Origin: Pontibacter kalidii
GTDB lineage: Bacteria > Bacteroidota > Bacteroidia > Cytophagales > Hymenobacteraceae
Length of the DNA stretch: 64,000 bases
NCBI RefSeq assembly: GCF_026278245.1
Contig: NZ_CP111079.1
Location: 312,501 to 376,500, forward strand
Reading direction: 5' to 3'
The notes beneath the pieces are model-generated. The model had not been told where the DNA came from and searched no databases. It saw only the letters and a program-made list of their open reading frames with translations. The position numbers were made by a program, and so were the translations under genes. This document shows positions 15,971-45,545 of this stretch, one piece after another. Every line of letters starts with the position of its first letter. The stretch's first letter is position 1.

Positions 15971-17089
15971 CTATTGCTGCTCTACCGGTTTAGCAACAAC
16001 CGGCGCGGCAAATACTTCGTTTTGGATACCAAGGGAAAAGCCGTGAATGCTGTCGAAAATCGCCTTTACAAAATCTTCATCCAGGCCTATCTCACCAGCG
16101 ACCTTCAGCCTGTTTTCCAGTATCTCCTTCCAGCGTGCTGATTGGTAAATATCGAGCGCGTTAGCGCGTTTATACTCACCGATCCGCTTCGACACATCCG
16201 CGCGCAGGAACAGCATGTTTAATAATTCATGGTCCAGTTTGTCGATGAGGCTGCGTAGGTCCTGTAGCTGCTCTGGCTGCGCCACCCGCTCGCTCTCCAG
16301 GTCCAGCACCGTGAGCAGCTTATCGAGTCCGGCCGGTGTTACCTGCTGCGAGGCATCGCTCAGGGCCACATCCGGGTTAATGTGCGTTTCGATCATCAGG
16401 CCATCGGCACCTAAATGCAGGGCCTGCTGGCTTACAGTCTCCAGCAAGTCACGGCGGCCGGCAATATGACTCGGGTCGCAGAGCAGCGGAATGCCAGGGG
16501 CCAGGGTACGGATTTCCTGTATGGTTTGCCACTTGGGGTGGTTGCGGTAAGGTTTGCTGTTAGGCGTAGAGAAGCCGCGGTGAATCAGCCCCAGGTCGGT
16601 GATGCCGGCACGGTTCAGGCGCTCCAGCGCGCCCAGCCACAGCTGAATATCCGGATTTACTGGGTTTTTCACCATCACCGGAATGTCCACGCCCTGCAGC
16701 GCATCGGCGAGCTCCTGCACCGAGAAAGGGTTTACGGTTGTGCGAGCACCCACCCAAAGTATATCCACGCCATACTTCAGCGCCTCTTCCACGTGCTGGG
16801 TATTAGCTACCTCCACGGCTGTTTGCAGCCCTGTTTCCTGCTTCACCGTCTGCAGCCACTCCAGCCCCACCTTGCCTACTCCCTCGAATTGTCCCGGGCG
16901 GGTACGGGGCTTCCAGATGCCTGCCCTGAAGATAGAAACGCGGTGGTCTTTCTTCAGCTCGCGTGCCGTCTGCAGCATTTGTTCTTCCGATTCGGCACTG
17001 CAGGGGCCGGCGATAACGGTTGGGAGGGGGCCACCATTCAAGATTTTTGTGGTAGCTACTGTGTTGAGGTTAGATGTGTTGGTACTCAT
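15971..17089 (-). CDS. bifunctional DAHP synthase / chorismate mutase (intact copy)
   Basis: A 372-residue fusion. Residues 20-260 are a type I-beta DAHP synthase (PEP + erythrose-4-phosphate to DAHP, first shikimate step): metal Cys30 in AGPCSAESEE, RAGIWKPRTRPG, GARTTVNPF, K141 in VKNPVNPD, HRGF at 170-173, DPSH near 205-208, Glu in MIETHINP, D245. Residues 275-355 are an AroQ-type chorismate mutase (LRSLIDKLDHELL, R in FLRADVSKRIGEYK, ARW). It is the last gene of the cluster, four bases after the aminotransferase. Its paralogue at 19374-20480 has lost several of these residues. Confidence 0.95.
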   Translation of the reverse strand: MSTNTSNLNTVATTKILNGGPLPTVIAGPCSAESEEQMLQTARELKKDHRVSIFRAGIWKPRTRPGQFEGVGKVGLEWLQTVKQETGLQTAVEVANTQHVEEALKYGVDILWVGARTTVNPFSVQELADALQGVDIPVMVKNPVNPDIQLWLGALERLNRAGITDLGLIHRGFSTPNSKPYRNHPKWQTIQEIRTLAPGIPLLCDPSHIAGRRDLLETVSQQALHLGADGLMIETHINPDVALSDASQQVTPAGLDKLLTVLDLESERVAQPEQLQDLRSLIDKLDHELLNMLFLRADVSKRIGEYKRANALDIYQSARWKEILENRLKVAGEIGLDEDFVKAIFDSIHGFSLGIQNEVFAAPVVAKPVEQQ

Positions 17090-17092
17090 GAT

Positions 17093-18274
17093 TTATAATT
17101 GATTTAAAATTTCTGTTGATGATGTTATTCTGTTGATGGCTTCTTTGAGCTGATCAGCGGGAGCGCAGAGGGAAACCCGCAGGTAGCGCTCGCCCTGGCT
17201 GCCGAATATTTTGCCGGGCGTCAGGAAAATGCCCTGCTCATAGAGGAGCTGGTTTAGGTATACTTCTACATCGGCTACCTCCTCGGGCACGCGTGCCCAC
17301 ACAAACATGCCTACCTGGCCTGGCGTGTAGGTGCAGCCGAGCTGATCGAGGAGGAGGTGCGCCAGCTGCTGCCGTTGGGCATACACGGCGTTGCGCTCCG
17401 CGTGCCAGCTTTGGCTGTTATGGAGGGCGGTAATGGCGGCCTCCTGCACCGGCAGCAGCTGCCCTGAGTCGAGATTGCTCTTCACGGCAAGTATGGCCGA
17501 CAGGTACTCCTGTTTCCCCAGCACCATGCCTACGCGCCAGCCCGCCATGTTATGCGATTTGCTGAGCGAGTTCAGTTCCAGGCAGTTTTCTTTGGCGCCG
17601 GCTACACGTAGCAGGCTCAGCGGCGATTGCTCGTGCAGCACCAGGCTGTAGGGGTTGTCGTTGATGAGCAACAGGCCGTGCTGCTGCGCAAAGGCCACCA
17701 GCCACTCCAATGTATGCATGGCGGCGGGAGTGCCTGTTGGCATGTGCGGGTAATTGACCCACATCAGCTTAAAGCCGCCCTGCGCCACCAGCTGCTCCAG
17801 TTCCTTTGGCTGCGGAAGCCAGCCGCTTGCCTCTTCCAACGTATAGCTCACAATCTCCGCGCCGGCCAGGCGTGCCGCCGCGGCATAGGCCGGGTAGCCG
17901 GGGTTGGGCACCAGTACCTTGTCGCCGGGATTCAGGAAGGCCATGGATATATGGAAAATGCCTTCCTTAGAGCCCGCCAGCGGCAGTACCTCCTGCTCCT
18001 GCAGCTCCACGTGGTACAGCTGCTGGTACCAGGCTTGCATGGCCTGACGTAGCTTAGCCGTGCCGTTGTAGGGCTGGTAACCGTGGCTCGTGGCCTGCTG
18101 CGCCGACTGCGCGAGCGCCGCTATGGTAGCCTCGGAGGGAGGCAGGTCGGGGCTGCCGATGCCGAGGTTGATGATGCGTTTGCCCTGCGCCTGCAGTGCC
18201 CGCACCTCCGCCAGCTTTTGCGAGAAGTAATACTCCTGCACGTGCTGTAGCCTGTCTGCTTTAGGTATGATCAT
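17093..18274 (-). CDS. PLP-dependent class I/II aminotransferase, probably aromatic or prephenate-related
   Basis: A 393-residue fold-type I aminotransferase. The PLP lysine is K239 in SLSKSHNMAGWRVG; LGIGSPDLPPS at the N-terminus, NPGYPAY and NDNPYS are also typical. It resembles aspartate/LL-DAP-type enzymes. Placed between prephenate dehydratase and DAHP synthase/chorismate mutase, it probably makes Phe (or Tyr) from the keto acid; this is inferred from context. The gene is four bases from each neighbour, so it is in one operon with them. Confidence 0.9.
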   Translation of the reverse strand: MIIPKADRLQHVQEYYFSQKLAEVRALQAQGKRIINLGIGSPDLPPSEATIAALAQSAQQATSHGYQPYNGTAKLRQAMQAWYQQLYHVELQEQEVLPLAGSKEGIFHISMAFLNPGDKVLVPNPGYPAYAAAARLAGAEIVSYTLEEASGWLPQPKELEQLVAQGGFKLMWVNYPHMPTGTPAAMHTLEWLVAFAQQHGLLLINDNPYSLVLHEQSPLSLLRVAGAKENCLELNSLSKSHNMAGWRVGMVLGKQEYLSAILAVKSNLDSGQLLPVQEAAITALHNSQSWHAERNAVYAQRQQLAHLLLDQLGCTYTPGQVGMFVWARVPEEVADVEVYLNQLLYEQGIFLTPGKIFGSQGERYLRVSLCAPADQLKEAINRITSSTEILNQL

Positions 18275-18278
18275 CTTC

Positions 18279-19145
18279 TTAACGTATGGCTGCTGTCTCT
18301 TTTTCGGATGCTGAGGTTAGCGGACGCGCCGCCTTCTGCAGCAGCCCCAGCACCTGTAACTCTTCCACCAGCGGCCGTACCTGCGCGATGGCCTCCTGCA
18401 GCTGCTCCACATGCTCCGCCTCCAGCTCTGCCACCATGTCGCCTCTCTCCTCTGAAGAAGGGAGGTGCTGCAGGAGCGCCAGCTCTACCTGGTGCTTCTG
18501 CAATAGACTTAGCAGTAAAGTGAGAGTGGCGGTATGCAGCGGCTTGCGGAAGGTAAGTATGGCCTTGTTGGCAGTGGCCGGTATGGCAGGCTGCTCCCGC
18601 TGCAGCAGCAGGAAGCGGGTATGGTTATGAGCCGATTCGGCGATGCCAGCGGCCAGGATCTCCAGGCCGTAAAGCGCTGCGGCCGCTTTTCCGGCAATGG
18701 CGGCTGTGTGCTGCAGCTGCTGTTCCTGAATGAGCTTCGCACTGTCGGCGGTATCGTGGGTTTCCTGTGGGTGCAGGTGCGGGTGCTGCTGCAGAAAGCC
18801 GCTGCACTGTGCCAGCGCCACCGGGTGCGATAGCACCGTCTGTAGGCTGGCTATACTTTGCCCTGGCAGCGCCATCAGGTTTTGGTCAATGGGCATCCAA
18901 TGCTCTGCCGCTATGTGCAGCCCGTGCTCCTGCAGCAGCACGTAGTTGGGCAGCAGGCTTCCGGCCAGGGTATTCTCAATGGCCATCACGGCGATATCCA
19001 CCTCCGCCTGCTGCAGCGAAGCGCAAAGGCTGCGGAAGGTGGTGCAGGGCACCGTCTCCACGGATCTGCCGGCGAGCAGCTGCCTGGCAGCCGCATCGTG
19101 GAAGGAGGCGGGCCCACCCTGTATGGCAATTCTGGTTCTGTTCAT
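18279..19145 (-). CDS. pheA: prephenate dehydratase
   Basis: A 288-residue stand-alone prephenate dehydratase (prephenate to phenylpyruvate, Phe branch). Visible motifs are IQGGPASFHDAAA at the start, VMAIENTLAGSL (52-63), LSHPVALAQCSGFL, and the catalytic T176-R177-F178 in SAHNHTRFLLL. Residues about 190-270 take the place of the ACT regulatory domain, but the Phe-binding ESRP motif is missing (QHLPSSEERGD is found). Upstream lies a Phe/Tyr-codon leader with a terminator 21 bp before the start, so control by attenuation is likely. The fused mutase of E. coli PheA is absent. Confidence 0.92.
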   Translation of the reverse strand: MNRTRIAIQGGPASFHDAAARQLLAGRSVETVPCTTFRSLCASLQQAEVDIAVMAIENTLAGSLLPNYVLLQEHGLHIAAEHWMPIDQNLMALPGQSIASLQTVLSHPVALAQCSGFLQQHPHLHPQETHDTADSAKLIQEQQLQHTAAIAGKAAAALYGLEILAAGIAESAHNHTRFLLLQREQPAIPATANKAILTFRKPLHTATLTLLLSLLQKHQVELALLQHLPSSEERGDMVAELEAEHVEQLQEAIAQVRPLVEELQVLGLLQKAARPLTSASEKETAAIR

Positions 19146-19165
19146 GGTGTGGATGCTATGGGGTT

Positions 19166-19315
19166 AAAAAGAAAAAACCCCGCTTGTGGCGGGGCTTCTC
19201 GGTTTATACTTTGGTGTGTTTCACAAACACAATAGCATTACCTGTGGAGCCCCGGCGGAGTACCAAAAAAGTAAAAGCTAAAGTAAAATGTGTTGTGCAA
19301 CATGTGTTTATACAT
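19166..19315 (-). promoter_or_regulatory. putative Phe/Tyr-responsive attenuator before pheA
   Basis: On the minus strand a leader ORF (19315-19238) is followed by a strong terminator: AGCCCCGC, loop, GCGGGG (stem bases 19196-19178), then six T, ending about 20 bp before the pheA ATG. The last leader codons contain CGGGGCT (complement of 19248-19254), which can pair with AGCCCCG of the terminator's 5' arm. A ribosome stalled at the Phe/Tyr run would leave this segment free to form an antiterminator; one that reaches the stop, seven bases after GGGGCT, would cover it. The pairing is read from sequence; the mechanism is inference. Confidence 0.75.
19238..19315 (-). CDS. Phe/Tyr-rich leader peptide of the aromatic operon
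   Basis: A 25-codon ORF, ATG at 19315 and TAA at 19240-19238, in the gap between the DAHP synthase paralogue and pheA. Its centre reads FYFSFYFF (residues 10-17): five Phe and two Tyr in eight codons, plus another Tyr at residue 2. The end is GTPPGLHR-stop. This is the classical design of amino-acid leader peptides such as PheL. A second in-frame ATG at residue 5 would give a shorter version. The peptide probably has no function beyond controlling the downstream terminator. Confidence 0.75.
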   Translation of the reverse strand: MYKHMLHNTFYFSFYFFGTPPGLHR

Positions 19316-19373
19316 CTTTCTGCTCCAAAGCTAGTTTGTGAGATTCAGAAATCCTACTTAAAAATTACTTTTA

Positions 19374-20480
19374 TTACGCCACCGCTGATGACTCCACCCC
19401 GCTTTGCGGGTACTTGCGGTGCTGCTGCAGCGCCTCCATCAGCGTTCTCACAAAGTGGCTGTCCATCTCGGTATAGTCGTCTCGCTGCAGCCAGGCGTCC
19501 AGCTCGCGCTGCCAGCGGCTTACCTGCAGGCTCTCCTGCACATCGCCCATCTGGTGCAGGCTTATCTTCTGCGATACCTCGCGGCGGCGCAGCAACAGCT
19601 CCATCAGGGCCTTGTCCATGCTGTCCATCTGCTGGCTCAGGTCGTCGAGCTGCTCTACCAGGTGGTTGGTGCCGTCCAGCTTCACCTTCGTTTCGATGGC
19701 GTTGATGAGCAGCCCCAGCTCCTGCGGCATCAGCTGCTGCTGCGGGCTGCTGAGTGCCGCAGCCGGGTTCACGTGCGACTCGAACAGCAGGCCATCTGCT
19801 CCCAGGTCTACGGCTTTCTGGCTAACCGGGTACAGCAGGCTGCGGCGGCCGGCAATGTGCGCGGCATCGCAAAGTACGGGCAGCTCCGGATGCATGTCCT
19901 TCAGCTGCAGCATGTGGTCCCAGCGCGGGTGGTTGCGGTAGGGATACTGCTCATCGGCGGTAAAGCCACGGTTGATCAGGCCAAGGTCGGTGATGTCGGC
20001 CTGATTGAGGCGCTCCAGCGCTCCCAGCCACAGGCCCAGGTCCGGGTACACCGGGTTGTTCACCAGTACAGGCATATTAGTTCCTTTCAGGGCAGCGGCT
20101 ATCTCCTCCATGGCGAAAGGGTTTACCGTCGCGCGCCCGCTGATGCTCAGGATGTCTACGCCATACTTCATGGCCTCCTCGGCATGCTGTACATTGGCCA
20201 CTTCGCAGGCGGTGCGCAGGCCGGTTTCTTTTTTCACCATGTCAAGCCACTGTAGCCCCACCGTACCGACACCCTTGAATGAGTTAGGGCGTGTGCGCGA
20301 TTTCCAGATACCAGCACGTAGCACATTAATTCCCTTAATGGCTTTTAGCTGTTGGGCTGTTTTCAGCATCTGTTCTTCGCTCTCGGCACTGCATGGTCCC
20401 GCAATTAGCACCAGGCTGCCGTCTGCATGTCGGAAGCTGCTTTTCTGTGCTACATTGATCGGTGCTCTACTTGCTCTCAT
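19374..20480 (-). CDS. DAHP synthase / chorismate mutase paralogue with degenerate active sites
   Basis: A 368-residue protein collinear and gap-free with the intact copy at 15971-17089 over the synthase domain. Several key positions differ: K141 to N (VNNPVYPD), H170 to N (NRGF), KPRT to KSRT, DPSH to DAAH, metal Asp245 to Ser, D240 to Ala. Cys30, Arg171, His208 and the ESHVNP Glu remain. In the mutase domain the first Arg is lost (LDDLSQQMDSMD) and the EYK lysine is replaced. It is probably catalytically impaired and may be regulatory, but residual activity cannot be excluded. It is first in the cluster and has its own leader. Confidence 0.85.
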   Translation of the reverse strand: MRASRAPINVAQKSSFRHADGSLVLIAGPCSAESEEQMLKTAQQLKAIKGINVLRAGIWKSRTRPNSFKGVGTVGLQWLDMVKKETGLRTACEVANVQHAEEAMKYGVDILSISGRATVNPFAMEEIAAALKGTNMPVLVNNPVYPDLGLWLGALERLNQADITDLGLINRGFTADEQYPYRNHPRWDHMLQLKDMHPELPVLCDAAHIAGRRSLLYPVSQKAVDLGADGLLFESHVNPAAALSSPQQQLMPQELGLLINAIETKVKLDGTNHLVEQLDDLSQQMDSMDKALMELLLRRREVSQKISLHQMGDVQESLQVSRWQRELDAWLQRDDYTEMDSHFVRTLMEALQQHRKYPQSGVESSAVA

Positions 20481-20544: not shown

Positions 20545-20688
20545 GCAAAAGAGCCCCGCTTGTGGCGGGGCTCCCTTGGTGGTTTATATCTTACAGCTCT
20601 TTTACAGCGCACAAATACATTACCTCGGAAGCCCCGTATGAGGCACCTTAAAGGAAATCGTATTAATGCAGGCTAGTTGCTGAAGCAT
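20545..20688 (-). promoter_or_regulatory. twin attenuator-like leader before the DAHP synthase paralogue
   Basis: The minus-strand leader matches the one before pheA: a leader ORF ending GGGGCTTCC-GAGG-TAA, then a terminator GAGCCCCGC-CACAA-GCGGGGCTC with following T (stem 20573-20551), identical in the core of its stem and loop. The leader segment CGGGGCTTCC pairs with GGGAGCCCCG of the terminator arm over 10 bp with one G-U, giving the same antiterminator option. The gene starts 65 bp after the T run. The 330-bp gap 20481-20809 contains this element and two AAGTATA copies. Confidence 0.65.
20620..20688 (-). CDS. short leader ORF, twin of the pheA leader but without the aromatic run
   Basis: A 22-codon ORF, ATG at 20688 and TAA at 20622-20620. 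It ends PHTGLPR-stop, similar to the PPGLHR-stop of the pheA leader, because both encode the shared GGGGCT antiterminator segment. Where the first leader has FYFSFYFF this one has residues around CINTISFK, with one Phe and no Tyr. It could sense another signal or be a decaying copy. Translation is unproven. Confidence 0.5.
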   Translation of the reverse strand: MLQQLACINTISFKVPHTGLPR

Positions 20689-44009: not shown

Positions 44010-44753
44010 CTATTCGGCCTCCACGGGCTCCTCGCGCAGTTTAAGGATAGCTTCCTCCAGTTCGGGCAGGCTTTCCAGCAGCTGCTCAAAGCTCTCGATA
44101 CAGAAGTACTGGCTCTGGAACGTCTCCTTGATGTAGGCTCTGTCCAGGATGTGCTGCACGTCAAAGTCGTGTTTCACGCTCTGCTCCGATACCGACAGCC
44201 TGCTCTCGCCAACCGACGAAAGTATGCCTGCACCGTAAATGCGCGCCTCCGCGCCAGGCTTTCGGAACAGGCCAAACTCGATGGTGTACCAGTAGATGCG
44301 CGTCAGGCGGTCCACAATATCGGGGCGGTCTACGTGCTGCAGCGCCATGGCCGATAGTTTTGCCAGAAACTCGCAGTACACCGGAATAGTGAGCAGCGGC
44401 ACGTGGCCGAACACGTCATGGAACATATCCGGCTCCTCCAGGTACTCGAGCTGGCCCATACTCCTGATCCACACGGTGGCCGGGAACTTCTTTTCCGCGA
44501 TCAGGCCGAAGAACAGTGCATCGTCCACAATGCCGGGAGCGGCCACCACCTCAAAGCCGGTCAGGGGCTTCAGGCGCTCGTTTACCTCCGCAAAGTTCGG
44601 GATGCGGTCCGGCTGGAAATTCACCAGCTTCAGGCCCTCAAAAAACTCGGGGATGGCTTTACCGGGCAGGTTCTCGATCTGGCGCTGGAACAGGATGGCC
44701 CAAACGTTATGGTTCTCTTCGGTGTAGGTGCTGTAGTTCTGAGTCAGGTTCAT
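44010..44753 (-). CDS. phhA: phenylalanine 4-monooxygenase
   Basis: A 247-residue bacterial-type aromatic amino-acid hydroxylase without a regulatory ACT domain. The iron ligands are H112 and H117 in PDMFHDVFGHVPLL and E159 in IYWYTIEFGLF. It turns phenylalanine into tyrosine using O2 and a pterin cofactor. Its 5' leader encodes a Tyr-rich peptide followed by a terminator, so it is probably switched on when charged tRNA-Tyr is scarce. That points to a tyrosine-making role; no tyrA is visible in the aromatic cluster at 15.9-20.5 kb. Confidence 0.95.
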   Translation of the reverse strand: MNLTQNYSTYTEENHNVWAILFQRQIENLPGKAIPEFFEGLKLVNFQPDRIPNFAEVNERLKPLTGFEVVAAPGIVDDALFFGLIAEKKFPATVWIRSMGQLEYLEEPDMFHDVFGHVPLLTIPVYCEFLAKLSAMALQHVDRPDIVDRLTRIYWYTIEFGLFRKPGAEARIYGAGILSSVGESRLSVSEQSVKHDFDVQHILDRAYIKETFQSQYFCIESFEQLLESLPELEEAILKLREEPVEAE

Positions 44754-44790
44754 GTTGTTATGGTTTGGTTTTTTGAATTGGGTACAAACG

Positions 44791-44984
44791 AAAAAAAGCA
44801 GGGGCTTAGGCCCGCTGCTTTGGCAGGTTCACCGCTGGGAGGGCCTTGGTGGCGTTGCTCCTCGAGTCTAAAATATTAGGTGTTGGTGATTGCCTTAGCT
44901 GCGGGTGCTGTAATAGCGATAATAATAGCTGTAATAGCTATAAACGCTCAGGCAATAAGAATAGGCAGTACGCAGCAGCGCCAT
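44791..44984 (-). promoter_or_regulatory. putative Tyr-responsive attenuator before phhA
   Basis: On the minus strand: a Tyr-rich leader ORF (44984-44895), a 70-nt linker, then a terminator AAAGCAG-C-GGGC-CTAA-GCCC-CTGCTTT followed by seven T in all (complement of 44821-44791), 37 bp before the phhA ATG. The linker holds AGGCCC (complement of 44841-44846), which can pair with GGGCCT of the terminator's 5' arm and loop (complement of 44808-44813), giving an antiterminator. The layout is that of classical ribosome-mediated attenuation. Function is inference. Confidence 0.75.
44895..44984 (-). CDS. Tyr-rich leader peptide of phhA
   Basis: A 29-codon ORF, ATG at 44984 and TAA at 44897-44895. Ten of its residues are Tyr, seven of them in the stretch YYSYYYRYY; the start is MALLRTAYSY and the end is STRS-stop. 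Such a density of codons for the product of the downstream enzyme is the hallmark of a leader peptide. The opposite-strand frame over the same bases is judged spurious. Confidence 0.75.
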   Translation of the reverse strand: MALLRTAYSYCLSVYSYYSYYYRYYSTRS

Positions 44985-45174
44985 GCCAAGGGATGTTGGC
45001 AAAGGAAGTGTGGTCGCTATGGCTGCGGGTTGATGCATGTGTTCTGTTACAGTTGCAAGAATGCGAACTTCTGGGTTAAACGCAAATGGCGGGGGTAGGT
45101 TTTTGTAGCTGACTTGTTTTTTCTGGTGGGGTATGCGTTTTGGTTATACTTGCGTTGGCTGTAAATTTATACTT

Positions 45175-45545
45175 GTGCTATACTTTATACTTGCCAGCTT
45201 ATACTTCGTAGCGCCTCTCTTAGCCAAGGCTCACTGCAACACGGACCAAGCTATTCTTTCTAGCTGCCGTTCATTCACGGCTTTACAACCTGCTCGTTTC
45301 ATTTCTGGCTTTGGAGCTCTCAAGCCCGAGCGGGCTCTGGGGGTAGGGGCCCTCGATAAGGGCATCGCGCTGGGAGCTTTTCCTGCCCTCGTGCCTCGGG
45401 CTGCCTCGCTCTCGCTCTGCACCGGAAAAACTCGCATAGGCGCTCAACGGAAAGACTGGGATCAGATTTGATTGCCATCGCTGATAGAGCTTGAACGGAG
45501 CTCCCCTCCTTGGACAAGGAGGGGTAGGGGTGGTTGGATACGGTG
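45175..45545 (+). repeat. dispersed intergenic repeat, copy B
   Basis: Homologous to the reverse complement of 14845-15225 and to 52370-52690. It starts in TATACTT-rich sequence, contains CTAGCTGCCGTTCAT, TTTCATTTCTGGCTTTGG, CACCGGAAAAA, GGCGCTCAACGG and GACTGGGATCAGATTTG, and ends in the palindromic CCCCTCCTTGGACAAGGAGGGG followed by TAGGGGTGGTTGG (given in parts). It fills most of the 910-bp gap 44754-45663; the rest is the phhA leader and TATACTT-rich sequence. Confidence 0.8.

Follow-up and report, generated by a model that had tools for sequence, protein, structure and literature searches.

The window, by which we mean the whole 64,000-nt stretch of Pontibacter kalidii DNA that was analysed, carries on its minus strand a gene for phenylalanine 4-monooxygenase (phhA), preceded by a short open reading frame (ORF) rich in Tyr codons and by an intrinsic terminator. 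In profile searches, PhhA scored 262.1 bits against NF008877, above the curated threshold of 247, and 238.9 against TIGR01267, below the cut-off of 264.75 for that model. The ATG start codon of phhA lies at 44753 and the T run of the terminator ends 37 nt earlier, as the initial annotation had stated. The features of this region, in window positions, are as follows.

44010..44753, minus strand: phhA, phenylalanine 4-monooxygenase, 247 aa (NCBIfam NF008877, Pfam Biopterin_H)
44791..44820, minus strand: intrinsic terminator (regions 3:4) with seven T, -15.1 kcal/mol
44809..44838, minus strand: region 3, GGUGAACCUGCCAAAGCAGCGGG and its neighbours, putative 3' strand of the antiterminator, overlapping the 5' arm of the terminator
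44884..44906, minus strand: region 2, the end of the leader ORF, its stop codon and GGCAAUCACC, candidate partner of region 1 or region 3
44946..44958, minus strand: region 1 (UUAUUGCCUGAGC), putative 5' strand of the protector hairpin 1:2
44910..44963, minus strand: Tyr-codon block with the Tyr codons from 26 to 43 of the leader, the proposed stall site
44895..45038, minus strand: leader ORF of 47 codons, 10 of them Tyr (MHQPAAIATTLPLPTSLGMALLRTAYSYCLSVYSYYSYYYRYYSTRS), from the ORF listing
45056..45086, minus strand: predicted promoter with TTTG at 45086-45083, 19 nt and CATTCTTG at 45063-45056

The transcript would start just upstream of the 47-codon leader ORF. The TTTG at 45086-45083 is presumably a Bacteroidota-type -33 box, and visual inspection showed a TTG...TTG pair like that of the predicted promoter upstream of most of the 40 leaders described below. 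The promoter prediction was made from such Bacteroidota-type boxes in the sequence only, and passages of PMC9723704 give the corresponding -7 box as TAnnTTTG. Between phhA and the next gene, at about 45495-45545 of the window, lies a GC-rich inverted stretch (ctcccctccttggacaaggaggggtaggggtgg), perhaps a dispersed repeat.

The leader was compared across 50 Pontibacter genomes, 42 of them with and 8 without phhA. All 42 phhA-bearing genomes have a Tyr-rich leader before the gene. In 20 of these genomes, the 250 nt directly preceding phhA do not differ from those of named Pontibacter records. After removal of 20 duplicates, 60 loci yielded 40 distinct leaders, which were aligned over the stretch that begins with the upstream ATG and ends with the T run (alignment A1); the divergent phhA genes of two genomes (G033 and G117), each with its own Tyr leader (L130, L131), lie outside this alignment. 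All 40 leaders have, in the same frame, an ATG that corresponds to the one at 45038, followed by a comparable peptide beginning (of the type M[HQ]..AAIA), the invariance of the ATG in A1 being partly due to construction, because the rows were cut at that ATG by the script. The initial annotation had begun the leader at an inner ATG at 44984, giving 29 codons (MALLRTAYSYCLSVYSYYSYYYRYYSTRS; stop at 44897-44895, minus strand). Its count of 10 Tyr codons holds for this reading as well as for the longer one, but the 29-codon extent was rejected in favor of the conserved start at 45038, since many relatives carry other codons at the place of 44984. The leaders encode 46 to 61 aa (47 in the window) with 7 to 11 Tyr each, and the mean of 9.1 Tyr in the leader frame compares with 0.4 and 2.0 in the other two frames. 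Five alignment columns retain Tyr in 37 to 40 of the 40 leaders, with some exchange of TAT and TAC. The comparison with related genomes that the initial annotation had suggested therefore finds that both the ORF and its Tyr codons are kept within the genus.

Chance might have brought repeats such as AGCTATTATTATCGC and a terminator together with a Tyr-rich stretch, free of any regulation, and part of the Tyr block is indeed composed of similar AGC-TAT units. However, in 20,000 mononucleotide shuffles of the leader codons, start and stop excluded, 10 Tyr were never reached (maximum 9), and the 40 leaders have frame, terminator and antiterminator in common. Furthermore, at least 4 Tyr within 12 codons were found upstream of 44 of 90 phhA loci (460 nt searched; the 90 include four repeats, namely L130/L060, L136/L026, L137/L028 and L138/L029) as compared with 3 of 382 other ORFs (mechanically defined controls of at least 150 aa from the named loci, 400 nt searched). 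The 44 comprise 20 of 20 named Pontibacter loci (L003-L022), 16 of 60 loci from L023-L082 and 8 of 10 from L130-L139, the last group containing the four repeats. We regard coincidence as barely credible. A strict Tyr-repeat pattern occurs at two places in the 5.05 Mb genome, one being the phhA leader and the other the locus L115. A genome-wide hunt for further Tyr leaders with TAYTAYTAY was dropped, as its 296 matches were fewer than the 409 of the backward control.

The terminator consists of a hairpin at 44820-44798 and a T run at 44797-44791 (minus strand), and its core pairs are retained in 39 to 40 of the 40 leaders. The initial annotation had proposed that AGGCCC (44846-44841) and GGGCCT (44813-44808) pair as an antiterminator. 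Both motifs are present in the window, but they occur together in one of the 40 leaders, the window's own, and this pairing was set aside for the duplex of regions 2 and 3. In the window, the 2:3 duplex joins CCCGC.GCU..GGCA..UCACC with GGUGA..UGCC..AGC.GCGGG at -28.6 kcal/mol, as compared with -10.2 ± 3.5 for shuffles. Across the 40 leaders, its computed energy ranges from -14.1 to -28.6 kcal/mol, beats that of the terminator in every case and, against 200 shuffles each, reaches p ≤ 0.01 in 39 leaders and 0.04 in the remaining one (L016). Region 3 contains GGUGAACC in 16 leaders, CUGAU in 12, GUGAU in 9 and other versions in 3; in the CUGAU and GUGAU versions, an outer CGCUC pairs with GAGCG of the terminator.

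Counted on A1, which was aligned by sequence and not adjusted to structure, 70.9% of the cells of 2:3 are paired, compared with 16-36% when the strands are slid. The percentage paired, the number of doubly changed cells and the covariation score were each reached by 0 of 500 column shuffles. No support comes from the four pairs with two-sided change, a number that 36 of 500 shuffles reach, or from the seven further pair types, which 500 of 500 reach. At the A1 pair 177-236, CG is found in 26 leaders, GC in 12 and UA in one, with one gap and zero unpaired. The covariation amounts to few events, because a single C-G to G-C switch divides whole subclades. When regions 2 and 3 were swapped between subclades A and B, the energies were -10.1 and -14.1 as compared with -24.8 and -19.7, a cost of about 6-15 kcal/mol, and region 2 of subclade C pairs better with region 3 of A (-22.5) than with its own (-19.0). 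For the protector 1:2, 77% of the cells are paired as compared with 18-42% when slid, and its covariation in the 40-leader alignment does not rise above shuffles. The RNAalifold consensus of A1 contains the terminator as well as a stem in which AUAGC of the early leader pairs with GCUAU of the Tyr block. The 2:3 duplex is absent from this consensus; alternative pairings can drop out of an RNAalifold result, because it yields one structure. The AUAGC of the early leader, which can pair with GCUAU of the Tyr block, is nearly invariant (A1 columns 21-26, window about 45021-45016).

The competition between the two structures was also modelled. If a ribosome sits on the Tyr codons while most of region 4 has yet to be transcribed, 2:3 forms in all 40 leaders, and GCA of the terminator arm is paired with region 2 at a three-base mean of 0.61-1.00, where about 0.67 corresponds to two bases. 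When region 4 is present and a stalled ribosome is considered at equilibrium, the median probability of the terminator is 0.95 for a stall at the median Tyr and 0.85 at the last usable Tyr. As the terminator is favored at equilibrium in most stalled leaders, antitermination must be kinetic; the 2:3 duplex would have to form first and persist while the polymerase passes. With region 2 covered, the terminator forms in nearly all 40 leaders (mean 0.97, lowest 0.41). In the naked leaders of L088 and L104, the computed terminator scarcely forms (0.01 each). Region 2 of subclades B, C and D is situated within the ORF, 21-35 nt upstream of its end, and a ribosome at the stop codon would therefore not simply cover it.

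From the ORF, its Tyr codons, the terminator and the competing pairing, together with their conservation and the gene content, all of which can be read directly from the genomes, we infer stalling, read-through, the direction of the response and a flux through PhhA. We consider it highly probable that the leader controls phhA as a ribosome-mediated attenuator sensing charged Tyr-tRNA, with PhhA making Tyr from Phe, and on comparative grounds the case for an attenuator is strong. When charged Tyr-tRNA is scarce, the ribosome would halt in the Tyr block and occupy region 1, leaving region 2 unpaired. The free region 2 (ORF end and GGCAAUCACC) could then join region 3 (GGUGAACCUGCC and the 5' arm of the terminator) before region 4 exists, so that the terminator would be blocked and phhA transcribed. 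When Tyr is plentiful, the ribosome would run on into region 2, as far as the stop codon there, and the terminator would form; in an untranslated leader, 1:2 would pair and the terminator would form as well. Low Tyr-tRNA should thus raise phhA.

Beyond the genus, the agreement among relatives is partial. Of the 60 named loci L023-L082, 44, many of them from Algoriphagus, are without an ORF that reaches 4 Tyr in 12 codons, and most Algoriphagus-type phhA loci among the named loci examined have no Tyr-rich leader. In several Algoriphagus phhA loci, a short ORF (MNPTPRTYVHHSY..) is conserved that contains few Tyr. In L036, L046, L068, L070 and other Algoriphagus loci, a conserved peptide M[NS]PTPR[TF][YF][VI]HHS with several His and few Tyr is encoded 166-421 nt upstream of phhA, and a terminator lies downstream of it in the loci inspected. 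Across the class, 246 genomes were drawn, of which 67 gave a PhhA match, many of these matches being weak; 6 of 20 fetched loci (L183, L186, L193, L194, L197 and L198) reached 4 Tyr in 12 codons and the other 14 fell short. Two Echinicola species, neither of them E. vietnamensis, have a Tyr-rich phhA leader (MFENQAVKYYSHYYHFFSSWD). A search of 110 loci outside the 40 aligned leaders yielded 46 distinct ORFs in which 12 codons include at least 3 Tyr, a score that is unreliable, since those of L076 and L191 resemble chance or coding pieces. A hairpin of -8 kcal/mol or better stands before a T run for 44 of these 46 ORFs, and a competing pairing at p ≤ 0.05 was found in 31 of 45 leaders. The 14 short of this threshold are L023, L026, L028, L029, L042, L060, L132, L133, L134, L139, L183, L193, L197 and L198.

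These leaders, otherwise unlike one another (e.g., MNPQTVHYYYYYH.., MRNFNTYYYYYF.. and MTRFTSRYYAYAYYAP..), have Tyr in common, which bears on the question of what is sensed. The leader could respond to general translation or to Ser or Arg, or its peptide could arrest the ribosome, with the Tyr codons being secondary. The Pontibacter leader does contain many Ser codons, and its early part is conserved at the nucleotide level around CATAGC, as such a reading would have it. However, the other leader families have Tyr in common but not Ser, Arg or the N-terminal half, and the sequences of the leader peptides vary widely, unlike those of known arrest peptides. Sensing of this kind is therefore very improbable.

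In a Hymenobacter-like genus, phhA occurs in tandem, and 20 loci were selected for such tandem copies. The copy nearer to the PhhA of the window has a Tyr leader in all 20, and the other copy in none, with at most 3 Tyr in 12 codons. The second copy in L160-L179 is often preceded, at about 175 to 85 nt, by a small ORF that is not Tyr-rich (e.g., MFNLTATRFMSITVCNLQYGSGRRGRCNR) and by a T run at about -25.

For the role of the enzyme, the genes of aromatic amino acid synthesis are relevant, which lie in the window as follows.

15971..20480, minus strand: aromatic cluster without tyrA
15971-17089, minus strand: DAHP synthase-chorismate mutase
17093-18274, minus strand: aminotransferase
18279-19145, minus strand: prephenate dehydratase
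19238..19315, minus strand: Phe/Tyr-rich leader ORF (MYKHMLHNTFYFSFYFFGTPPGLHR) before prephenate dehydratase, with a terminator after it that ends at about 19172
19374-20480, minus strand: DAHP synthase

The initial annotation had pointed out that tyrA is absent from this cluster, which is correct, and had seen in this a support for Tyr supply by PhhA. This second step fails, as the search of the whole genome located tyrA at G000:C1:1987416-1988315 (the window being G000:C1:312501-376500), 1.6 Mb from phhA, encoding 299 aa with both prephenate dehydrogenase domains, and the notion of a genome lacking tyrA was discarded. In two genomes (G103 and G113; L147 and L152), aminotransferase, tyrA and DAHP synthase-chorismate mutase stand in one row, and the cluster of the window may therefore have lost tyrA. 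Open frames of ~663 aa had suggested that aminotransferase and TyrA are fused, a reading that was dropped because the match coordinates place the two in different frames. Of 80 named loci, 31 have a DAHP synthase within 3 kb upstream of phhA, a group that includes no Pontibacter locus from L003-L022; aminotransferase and tyrA lie upstream of phhA in one of the 80. Before the first DAHP synthase of the window, at 20547-20688 on the minus strand, there is a leader-like ORF (MLQQLACINTISFKVPHTGLPR) with a terminator; it has no clear codon run and is perhaps a degenerate copy of the pheA leader.

The tyrA gene of this genome is itself preceded by two tandem Tyr-rich leaders (MSTTHQHTAYASYYYHTLCHKGG and MMKLNLTLYYPFYYYYFYFRKEKGHLW; L113:5316-5780, minus strand), each of which stands before a terminator-like hairpin, as judged by eye. 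A further 26 genus genomes have a clear tyrA, and 20 of these loci were fetched. At least 4 Tyr in 12 codons precede the gene in six of them (G055, G067, G083, G089, G109 and G125), with a similar pair of Tyr-rich ORFs in G083, and the 900 nt upstream hold no Tyr-rich ORF in the remaining 14, which include all 8 phhA-less genomes. A Phe/Tyr-rich ORF precedes prephenate dehydratase in all 30 loci fetched from the 34 genus genomes that have this gene, the terminator after it having been checked in the window only, and this leader fits a pathway in which Phe feeds Tyr. Two tandem Phe/Tyr-rich ORFs were noted before prephenate dehydratase in L225-L229.

With a PF02153 match at E ≤ 1e-30 taken as a clear tyrA, each of the 8 phhA-less genomes has the gene, as do 19 of the 42 with phhA. 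Of the other 23, 18 are without any match and 5 have a weak match that falls short of the cut-off, and none of the 50 genomes is without both phhA and a clear tyrA (Fisher one-sided p=0.004 for the distribution, computed ignoring kinship). For 23 of the 42 genomes with phhA, PhhA would thus be the only recognised Tyr route. Of the 50 genomes, 16 have no prephenate dehydratase (PF00800); all 16 carry phhA, and 15 of them also have no clear tyrA. Barring unrecognised enzymes, the 8 genomes with prephenate dehydratase but no clear tyrA would therefore obtain Tyr only via Phe, and the 15 without either would need imported Phe; the latter are predicted to be Phe auxotrophs that retained phhA.

A Tyr-supplying, biosynthetic role of PhhA is therefore likely, and a switch on phhA that responds to Tyr shortage points to making Tyr, beyond only breaking down Phe. 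In this genome, Tyr made from Phe would be formed alongside the product of TyrA. The proposal of the initial annotation that stalling at Tyr codons controls phhA for Tyr supply accordingly draws support from conservation, covariation, gene context and the tyrA leaders. Bacterial phenylalanine hydroxylase (PAH) is usually described as catabolic, according to passages of PMC7311316, and is handled as such in those of PMC1173090. It is also conceivable here that PhhA mainly leads Phe to homogentisate and that the Tyr leader is mere product feedback, keeping PhhA low at abundant Tyr. In line with this, 4-hydroxyphenylpyruvate dioxygenase (hpd) lies above the cut-off in 48 of 50 genus genomes, including this one, and pterin carbinolamine dehydratase is found in 49 of 50. 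However, hpd does not track phhA, being found in each of the 8 phhA-less genomes too, a catabolic gene would be expected to be induced by Phe or Tyr while the device should close phhA at plentiful Tyr, and the same device stands on tyrA of this genome. The lack of a clear tyrA in 23 of the 42 phhA-bearing genomes and the restriction of the Tyr leader to one copy of the Hymenobacter-like tandem pairs (20 of 20 loci fetched) speak against it as well, and a mainly catabolic PhhA appears unlikely. A biosynthetic PhhA would agree with Echinicola vietnamensis, where, in the relevant passages of PMC7311316 (the GapMind paper), fitness data indicate that PAH matters in some defined media, and PAH and the dehydrogenase both seem to serve Tyr synthesis.

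Taken more broadly, it seems rather probable that Tyr-codon attenuators before PAH form an undescribed regulator class that extends over several Bacteroidia families and marks biosynthetic PAH, with animal-style Tyr synthesis as the sole recognised route in 23 of the 42 genomes. If so, leader codons would separate anabolic from catabolic PAH copies, as in the Hymenobacter-like tandem pairs. A Tyr-shortage switch that phhA shares with tyrA in the same genome would be independent, sequence-readable evidence for a biosynthetic PAH; it would correct auxotrophy predictions for Bacteroidota and help to tell anabolic from catabolic paralogues. The comparison also supplies a set of candidate Tyr-responsive attenuators and, within the literature searched, would add Tyr to the codons used in attenuation.

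The trp, his and pheA-type operons of E. coli are controlled by leader-peptide (ribosome-mediated) transcription attenuators. The phhA leader resembles them in its short ORF, its run of codons for the end product, its intrinsic terminator, the competing antiterminator over the 5' arm of the terminator and, in the window's subclade, the stop codon inside region 2. It differs in its Tyr codons, its occurrence in Bacteroidota, its target PAH and its longer ORF (47 aa). In comparison with described leaders, it matches no Rfam family; covariance models, including those for T-boxes, riboswitches and described leaders, gave zero matches to 44700-45120 up to E=5. Comparable candidates named in passages of PMC8632094 are uORFC-8-2 (cysS) with Cys codons and uORFC-13-1 (aroF) with Phe codons. 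A Tyr-codon leader before phenylalanine hydroxylase was not found in searches of open-access text. In Flavobacterium psychrophilum, likewise a member of the Bacteroidota, leader-peptide attenuators precede amino-acid biosynthesis operons, and the pheA and hisG 5' elements are described as having no Rfam match; the passages of that source considered here, however, mention neither 'tyrosine' nor 'phenylalanine' (PMC9723704). The PAH of Echinicola is alike in that a proposed Tyr-making enzyme stands beside a prephenate/arogenate dehydrogenase, as in this genome, but the case in the relevant passages of PMC7311316 is built on fitness data, with leader or attenuator unmentioned there. In comparison, phhABC of Pseudomonas aeruginosa encodes the same enzyme family as PhhA here, but its control, as described in passages of PMC1173090, is catabolic and activator-driven by PhhR/sigma-54, in contrast to the leader ORF and terminator of phhA in the window. 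The phhA leader would be an ordinary mechanism in an unexpected place.
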